Positions 19,476 through 31,225 of a stretch of 64,000 nucleotides of DNA are shown piece after piece. Position 1 is the stretch's first letter, and the number at the start of each line of letters is the position of its first letter. This stretch comes from Pseudoprimorskyibacter insulae. Lineage in GTDB: Bacteria > Pseudomonadota > Alphaproteobacteria > Rhodobacterales > Rhodobacteraceae. The position numbers and the translations under genes were made by a program. The stretch lies in NCBI RefSeq assembly GCF_900302505.1, contig NZ_OMOJ01000005.1:62001-126000 (forward strand). Direction: 5' to 3'. The notes below the pieces were generated by a model. The model was not told the DNA's origin and ran no database searches. It saw only the letters and a list, made by a program, of their open reading frames with translations.

Positions 19476-19639
19476 AAGATCACCTCAGATCGGGATGCCG
19501 TCCCCTAACGGGGTGGAGGTCCGCCCTTGTCCGATGCCATCCCCAAGATGTCTCGGTGTCTTAAAACGCAGGTTTAGCCGTGGGCGGCGCCTAGGTGAAC
19601 TGCGGACCAAGGCCCTGATACCATAGGTTGCGCGCCCTG

Positions 19640-29523: not shown

Positions 29524-30429
29524 ATGGACTGGGATAAGCTAAGAATCTTTCACGCGGTTGCCGATGCCGGCAGCCTGACACATGCGGGCGAAGCGCTGCA
29601 TTTGTCGCAATCTGCTGTCTCACGCCAAATCCGCGCACTGGAAGAGTCACTGAACACCACGCTGTTTCACCGTCACGCACGGGGACTGATTCTCACCGAA
29701 CAGGGGGAACTGCTGTTCGACGCCACCTCGTCGATGCTCAAACGGATTGATGCCGCCACCGCCCGTATTCGCGACAGCGAAGAAGAGGTGTTTGGCGAAT
29801 TGCGTGTGACCACCACGGCGGGGTTCGGCTCGCTCTGGCTGGCGCCGCGCCTGCCCAAGTTCTACGAAAAATACCCCGACATCCGCATTGACCTGATGTT
29901 GGAAGAACGGGTTTTGGACCTTCCCATGCGAGAGGCCGACGTTGCCATCCGCATGAAAGAACCAAGCCAAGCAGACCTGATCCGCAAGCGCCTGATGTCG
30001 GTGCGCATGCGCCTGTATGCCTCCCCCGAATATCTGGCCAAGAATGGTGAGCCTGAAAAGCTTGAAGATCTGTCGACACATCGTCTGATATGTCAAAGCC
30101 CGTCTTCGGCGCAGGTCGGGGCTGGTCTGAACTTGATCCAAGAATTGATGACCTACGACGTTCGATCAACGCTGACCGTCAACAACTACTTTGGCGTGTT
30201 GCAGGCCGTGATCCACAACCTCGGGATTGGAGTGTTGCCGGATTACATCATTGAGGACTTCCCCACCGTGGTCCGCGTTCTGCCCGAGGTCGAAAGCGTC
30301 GAGGTGCCGGTGTTCTTGGCCTATCCCGAAGAATTGCGACAATCCAAACGAATTCAGGCATTTCGCGATTTTGTCCAGGATGAGATTTTCGCCCATCGCC
30401 GCCAATTGAGGGCAATGGGCGAAGAATAA
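29524..30429 (+). CDS. LysR family transcriptional regulator
   Basis: A 301-residue LysR-type regulator. The N-terminal winged helix-turn-helix (about 1-60) includes DWDKLRIFHAVADAGSLTHA and LSQSAVSRQIRALEE; the effector-binding domain begins near 90 (GELRVTTTAGFGSLWLAPRL). I chose ATG 29524 as the family-typical start; an upstream GTG at 29515 adds three residues. It is divergent from the oxidoreductase gene with 165 bases between starts, so regulation of that gene is plausible. The effector is unknown. Confidence 0.9.
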   Translation: MDWDKLRIFHAVADAGSLTHAGEALHLSQSAVSRQIRALEESLNTTLFHRHARGLILTEQGELLFDATSSMLKRIDAATARIRDSEEEVFGELRVTTTAGFGSLWLAPRLPKFYEKYPDIRIDLMLEERVLDLPMREADVAIRMKEPSQADLIRKRLMSVRMRLYASPEYLAKNGEPEKLEDLSTHRLICQSPSSAQVGAGLNLIQELMTYDVRSTLTVNNYFGVLQAVIHNLGIGVLPDYIIEDFPTVVRVLPEVESVEVPVFLAYPEELRQSKRIQAFRDFVQDEIFAHRRQLRAMGEE

Positions 30430-30486
30430 TCCTTAGCCATGCATTAGATGCATAGCGGACATGATGCACCTGCGGCATATAAAACC

Positions 30487-30515
30487 TTGATCGACTCGGA
30501 ACTGAACATTAATTC
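30487..30515 (+). promoter_or_regulatory. Candidate promoter of the small RNA
   Basis: TTGATC (30487-30492) and TAATTC (30510-30515) are separated by 17 bases, placing a start near 30521. Agreement with sigma70 consensus is moderate. Confidence 0.45.
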
Positions 30516-30520
30516 AGCTT

Positions 30521-30602
30521 TCGAACGATGAAACGCGCATTTGCGCATCATCTTCATACCTCCCTGTTGGACTTCGGCCGAGCTTTGTGCTCGGCCTTTT
30601 TT
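30521..30602 (+). ncRNA. Candidate small RNA with an exposed CCUCCC motif
   Basis: In the 262-base gap between the lysR stop and the next gene there is a compact RNA-like unit. It starts with a 5' hairpin (GATGA-aac-GCGC-attt-GCGC-a-TCATC, 30527-30552), followed by a linker predicted single-stranded and containing ACCTCCC (30558-30564, complementary to Shine-Dalgarno sequences). It ends with an intrinsic terminator (GGCCGAG/CTCGGCC stem, 30576-30596, then a T-run). A -35/-10 pair precedes it. Anti-Shine-Dalgarno motifs are a known feature of several alphaproteobacterial sRNAs. It could instead be processed from the lysR 3' UTR. I recognise no specific family. Confidence 0.55.
30576..30602 (+). 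terminator. Rho-independent terminator of the small RNA / lysR
   Basis: GGCCGAG (30576-30582) and CTCGGCC (30590-30596) pair around CTTTGTG, followed by six T residues. It lies 147 bases after the lysR stop and 90 bases before the next start. Confidence 0.9.
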
Positions 30603-30691
30603 CTTTCTCCCCCTCCGACCTGCCAAACGCCCGTGATATCACAGGGTCGCACAAGCGCATTTTCGTCTGCGCCTCAGATTCGGAGCACTTC

Positions 30692-31225
30692 ATGTCCCAC
30701 AAATTTCAATGCGATTGCGGCCAAACCAAATGGTCCATCAAGTCCGATACGCCCGGCACCGCGCTAATTTGCTATTGCACCGATTGCCAAAACGCCGCGA
30801 CCCATCTTGGATCGCAAACCACATTGGACTCGGCGGGCGGCACGACGATTTATCAGGCTATGCCCTCGGACATTACATTTGAGGCAGGTTTCGATACCGT
30901 TAAGATGTTCATGCATCGACCCGATGGAATTTTCCGCTGGTATGCCGGGTGCTGCAACACGCCTATCGCCAACACGTTGAAAACCACAAAGATCCCCTTT
31001 GCCGGATATGTGCTGCCTGCGGGAAATACCGCCTTTGGCAGTAACCCACCGCAAGTCATGACCAAATCCGCGCTTTCGCCGATCAAGCAGCACGGCTTTG
31101 CCAAGGTCGGCTTTGGTGTCATCAGTCGCGGCTTGATGGCAAAGCTGCGCGGCAACACGTCCGGCGCGCCCTTCTTTGTGGGCGGTGTCCCGGTACGAGA
31201 TCCCGAAGTGCTTTCGAAAAGCTAG
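30692..31225 (+). CDS. DUF6151 family protein (GFA-like zinc protein)
   Basis: A 177-residue protein with a GFA-like cysteine arrangement: CDCGQTKW at residues 6-13, CYCTDCQN near 28-35, and WYAGCCNTPIANTL near 87-100. These Cys pairs probably bind zinc. The overall pattern is that of DUF6151, whose function is unknown; GFA relatives handle glutathione-formaldehyde adducts, but the match is not close enough to assign that. ATG 30692 is preceded by GGAG. Upstream in-frame codons run through the small-RNA terminator and are not coding. Confidence 0.75.
   Translation: MSHKFQCDCGQTKWSIKSDTPGTALICYCTDCQNAATHLGSQTTLDSAGGTTIYQAMPSDITFEAGFDTVKMFMHRPDGIFRWYAGCCNTPIANTLKTTKIPFAGYVLPAGNTAFGSNPPQVMTKSALSPIKQHGFAKVGFGVISRGLMAKLRGNTSGAPFFVGGVPVRDPEVLSKS

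Follow-up and report, generated by a model that had tools for sequence, protein, structure and literature searches.

The closest described systems come from Rhodobacter and from the Rhizobiales. In R. sphaeroides, SorX and SorY are controlled by RpoHI/RpoHII, and SorY binds Hfq, as do CcsR and Pos19 (PMC8307010); SorY has its own mapped start at 1,632,642 and acts on takP (PMC6238624), while SorX is processed out of the 3' UTR of the OmpR gene that precedes it. AbcR1 and AbcR2 (ar15, RF02345) have Hfq and a transporter theme in common with SorY (PMC8844928, PMC5461406). In Rhizobiales (Rhizobium, Agrobacterium, Brucella) AbcR RNAs are under the control of the LysR-type activator VtlR/LsrB. In S. 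meliloti, LsrB drives PabcR1, to which it binds, while abcR2 is driven by RpoH1 (PMC8844928).

We analyzed a 64,000-nt stretch of the Pseudoprimorskyibacter insulae genome (the window), in which an RNA follows a lysR gene on the same strand after a gap of 91 bp. Behind lysR come, in order, an inverted repeat, half-sites, CTTGAT, CATTAAT, a hairpin, the core and a terminator (GGCCGAGC-TTTGT-GCTCGGCC followed by T6), and then the next gene at 30692 (Table 1). The RNA is a real small regulatory RNA and an orthologue of the already known SorY, not a new kind. A preliminary description had proposed a candidate unannotated sRNA: an autonomous trans-type anti-Shine-Dalgarno (anti-SD) RNA of about 80 nt is indeed present, but it is the orthologue of the published SorY, and it is unannotated in the sequence record only, as Rfam detects it (SorX, above cut-off).

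Table 1. Features of the lysR–sRNA locus, in window coordinates.
Feature	Position	Strand	Remark
LysR-type regulator, VtlR/LsrB orthologue	29524..30429	+	proposed sRNA activator
Proposed VtlR/LsrB operator ATGC-N7-GCAT (ATGCATTAGATGCAT)	30439..30453	.	centre about -75
Second operator-like half-site set (CATGATGCACCTGCGGCAT)	30460..30478	.	between operator and -35
-35 element CTTGAT (RpoH-like CTTGAA)	30486..30491	+	aligned to R. sphaeroides
-10 element CATTAAT (R. sphaeroides: CCTAAAT)	30507..30513	+	aligned to R. sphaeroides
SorY-orthologue sRNA, about 82 nt	30521..30602	+	start placed by alignment
5' hairpin, 12 pairs	30523..30555	+	folding
Conserved targeting core ACCUCCCUGUUGGACUU / ACCTCCCTGTTGGACTT	30558..30574	+	invariance among relatives
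CCUCCC inside targeting core	30559..30564	+	mostly outside stems
Intrinsic terminator, 8-bp stem + U6	30576..30602	+	ends the RNA

The SorY covariance model matched the window at 30525-30604 over its full length (model 1-83; 57.3 bits, E 4e-11), a match seen only with the Rfam threshold lowered and scoring below the RF02651 gathering cut-off of 111. That cut-off is narrow: the R. sphaeroides SorY locus itself (genome G051, where SorX lies at 2,598,224 and SorY starts at 1,632,642, as published for strain 2.4.1; PMC6238624) reaches 115 bits, just above it, and none of the 61 other genomes searched passes it. The assignment therefore rests on synteny, and with the cut-off so near the founder's own score we file the RNA as a syntenic orthologue and do not claim formal RF02651 membership. 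The gene order IOR / LysR / sRNA / purL is common to the window and the R. sphaeroides SorY locus, although the window has a small extra gene ahead of purL. The two loci can be aligned from the operator through the terminator, and they agree in promoter layout, RNA length, core, terminator and order of parts but differ in the sequence of the 5' hairpin. In almost every Rhodobacterales SorY locus, the gene immediately before the sRNA encodes a LysR protein 64–87% identical.

By the Rfam cut-offs, the RNA would be labeled a second SorX, as the SorX model scores 48.8 bits at 30532-30602 (cut-off 46.6), and SorX (RF02784) has the same ACCUCCCUGUUGGAC core and terminator. We regard this label as very improbable: the SorY score is higher and covers the full model, the locus is that of SorY, and a better SorX (G000:C9:239579-239651, 69.9 bits) already lies behind an OmpR-type gene in the same genome; SorX is also derived from a 3' UTR, whereas the window RNA lies behind lysR and has a predicted promoter of its own. 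The shared locus, the full-length alignment and the location of SorX elsewhere therefore identify the window RNA as the SorY orthologue. Outside R. sphaeroides, Rfam at its current cut-offs calls SorY orthologues SorX or misses them.

The highest-scoring SorY relative among the genomes searched (L046, 78.6 bits) has no LysR gene within 1.5 kb. The window's genome also carries a third RNA-like element with CCUCCCUGU (G000:C8:21165-21242, plus strand; L078:2666-2743) that scores 25.8 bits with the SorX model and 22.6 bits with R1, a model described below, and adjoins an ATPase gene on the opposite strand.

Positions 30487-30602 fold at -40.5 kcal/mol, compared with -23.9 ± 2.9 kcal/mol for shuffled sequences (z -5.8); a second hairpin of this 116-nt fold, at 30496-30524, is promoter region and lies outside the RNA. 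In an alignment of 30 Rhodobacterales sequences, one of them the window's, the ACCTCCCTGTTG core never varies, with ACCUCCCUGUUG around CCUCCC invariant and the GGACUU tail nearly so. Almost all folds leave CCUCCC out of both main stems, and any pairing it enters is a weak CC/GG one of 2 bp at most. The 5' hairpin is kept 0–3 nt ahead of the core in 30/30 despite its varying sequence, and for each of the 30 the fold equals or beats those of 98% of its shuffles; these figures come from folding the sequences one at a time, a procedure that favors pairing. RNAalifold on a MAFFT alignment gave no useful consensus structure because the hairpin columns slide in the alignment. The 5' hairpin, single-stranded CCUCCC and strong terminator of the preliminary description are thus all present, and its suggested comparison of stem variation among relatives does not count against the RNA. 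The promoter-like pair that it reported is also there, but by alignment it is RpoH-like, and a sigma-70 promoter scan of the region found nothing.

The same description had set the RNA apart from the CcsR group by its one unpaired motif, a distinction borne out by the single CCUCCC between two stems. CcsR RNAs carry their anti-SD motifs in loops. An anti-SD motif in a Rhodobacterales host might still suggest a CcsR/cuckoo-type RNA, the anti-SD idea and the order of bacteria being common to both, but we consider this extremely improbable given the unpaired motif in place of loop motifs and an Rfam search in which no such family was matched. CcsR also differs in its four homologous copies, cotranscribed with ccaF1 (PMC8307010).

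CTTGAT-N15-CATTAAT stands at the place that aligns with the R. sphaeroides SorY promoter, and the start at about 30521 was obtained by alignment to the mapped SorY start (PMC6238624). The spacing between the elements is one base shorter than in R. sphaeroides, and the -10 element and spacer are imperfect; among relatives, CTTGWH occurs 60–82 nt before the core in 27 of 32, compared with 8% of shuffles. From these alignments we infer an RpoH-like promoter at 30486-30513. Closeness to lysR on the same strand could mean that the conserved stretch is merely the lysR 3' UTR with its terminator and has no separate RNA function. An invariant core, the operator and promoter elements that separate the RNA from lysR, and the separately mapped start of R. 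sphaeroides SorY (PMC6238624) all speak against this, and we give such a reading hardly any weight.

Judged from protein comparisons, the neighboring LysR is an orthologue of VtlR/LsrB. Searched with the Agrobacterium LysR encoded ahead of abcR1, the window's genome returns the window LysR first (258 bits, against 132 for the runner-up), and the corresponding LysR is likewise the top hit in R. sphaeroides; the window LysR and the Rhizobiaceae protein are reciprocal best hits. Strong matches to the window LysR were found in 37 of 76 class genomes, and almost every alphaproteobacterial genome that has the protein has just one match at E<=1e-60. This distribution agrees with papers describing VtlR as a conserved alphaproteobacterial regulator, but not with PMC11975290, where LsrB is said to occur in Rhizobiales only. 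A TrxB CxxC motif was detected beside LysR in 23 of 28 non-Rhodobacterales loci, and trxB next to VtlR is a published arrangement (PMC7486931); trxB is not next to the window LysR, where a divergent IOR gene stands instead. The redox cysteines of Rhizobiales LsrB occur in none of 30 Rhodobacterales LysR copies, and thus we do not claim the window LysR as a redox sensor. Another single cysteine is common to 22 of these 30 copies.

The inverted repeat ATGC-N7-GCAT, allowing 0–1 mismatch, was detected in 26/30 Rhodobacterales, 18/18 other alphaproteobacterial and 47/57 Rhizobiaceae-type loci, compared with 5–7% in shuffles, and in Rhodobacterales and Rhizobiaceae it mostly lies 100–115 nt ahead of the core. 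Read by eye, most relatives carry half-sites resembling ATGCTGCA..TGCGGCAT, and the published VtlR box GCAT-N3-TG-N3-T is matched with one mismatch by GCATAGCGGACAT at 30450-30462. SorY appears to combine an RpoH-type promoter with a LysR operator.

A LysR gene followed by a CCUCCC-bearing sRNA recurs across alphaproteobacteria. SorY is the sRNA behind LysR in Rhodobacterales; ar15/AbcR lies above cut-off directly downstream of LysR in Agrobacterium, Sinorhizobium, Ensifer, Brucella and Pleomorphomonas; and 20 of 27 other loci have a GTCTCCCAGACGTGAAGCCTCCCTGTT-type, SorX-like RNA with a terminator behind LysR. The named Rhizobiaceae loci are database records obtained with an alignment whose first row was an LsrB fragment (up to 89% identity to it), and they match ar15 strongly despite an ar15 search of 190 class genomes that found none, a negative that we ascribe to a limit of the search. 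Like the window RNA, AbcR1 and AbcR2 lie behind a VtlR/LsrB orthologue and its operator and have an unpaired anti-SD motif between stems; AbcR/ar15 RNAs differ in their core and in bearing two anti-SD motifs (loop and linker), of which the window RNA has only that in the linker. Because of the recurring arrangement and the upstream operator, SorY is probably the form that the VtlR-AbcR module takes in Rhodobacterales, with a putative role as an anti-SD repressor of transport mRNAs.

The RNAs themselves could nevertheless have arisen independently, SorY being as described above and its place behind VtlR/LsrB and its CCUCCC resembling AbcR by convergence. The ar15 model did not match the window RNA, the Rhizobiaceae linker reads GUUCCCCUCUGGAGG rather than CCUCCCUGUU, and in Ahrensia kielensis an ar14 RNA (NfeR1 family, 71 bits; L182:3492-3615) takes the position after the VtlR/LsrB orthologue that ar15 has in relatives. 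We nonetheless find convergence rather unlikely, given the same operator at a similar distance and the intermediate RNAs at the same place. Two of these intermediates score both with SorX and with mmgR/suhB (RF00519, in clan CL00108 with ar15), the latter at 35.1 and 34.3 bits against 24.1 for the window RNA and a cut-off of 41. Model R1, built only from non-Rhodobacterales RNAs and holding 4 base pairs, so nearly a sequence model, reaches ar15 loci weakly (L193, E 0.006; L159, E 0.016), and its best three hits in the window's 4-Mb genome are SorX, SorY and the third copy (E 0.0009, 0.006 and 0.010).

Locus, operator and intermediate RNAs together suggest that the window RNA is homologous to AbcR. 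We think it reasonably likely that SorY, SorX, AbcR (ar15) and the unnamed alphaproteobacterial CCUCCC RNAs descend from one ancestral VtlR/LsrB-activated anti-SD sRNA encoded behind VtlR/LsrB; Rhodobacterales would have kept the regulator and operator while lacking the loop motif and redox cysteines and carrying further copies, such as SorX, elsewhere. If this common ancestry is true, then LsrB is not a Rhizobiales specialty, contrary to PMC11975290. A limited literature search, with the primary SorX/SorY descriptions outside it, returned no paper stating a SorY-AbcR link.

We are confident in the overall reading of a SorY orthologue with an RpoH-type promoter, probable help from LysR, anti-SD action in trans and probable VtlR/LsrB-AbcR descent. 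RNA polymerase would start at the RpoH-type promoter, probably assisted by LysR from the upstream gene bound at ATGC-N7-GCAT, and the RNA of roughly 82 nt would end at the intrinsic terminator. It would then act in trans, as R. sphaeroides SorY does with Hfq, the unpaired ACCUCCCUGUUGGACUU pairing with the Shine-Dalgarno regions of mRNAs, above all those of transporters, and lowering their translation or stability; this step is drawn from the anatomy, from the published SorY-takP regulation and from AbcR. By descent, the RNA probably belongs among the VtlR/LsrB-linked sRNAs, of which AbcR is the Rhizobiaceae form, and lacks the anti-SD loop in its first hairpin. We did not locate takP and potA orthologues in P. 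insulae. The genome has only two perfect AACAGGGAGG sites beyond the sRNA genes. Both lie 5–9 nt before start codons, one of an enoyl-CoA-hydratase-like gene and one of a small secreted protein, with no transporter gene at either; their position fits Shine-Dalgarno pairing, but the sample is very small.

Taken alone, the window RNA adds another SorY. What the comparison brings together is two separate literatures, that of the Rhodobacter photooxidative-stress sRNAs and that of the Rhizobiales VtlR/LsrB-AbcR module; it predicts a direct activator of SorY (LysR) and, across the class, a regulator/sRNA unit serving nutrient uptake.

We observed two further RNA elements in these data. One locus (L081:2540-3180) has three tandem CCUCCC-bearing RNA-like units behind LysR, the second of which is very SorY-like (ATACCTCCCTGTTAGACTT). 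Elsewhere in the window, on the minus strand at 19566-19609, a COG3860 RNA (RF02940) scores 49.8 bits, above its Rfam cut-off.
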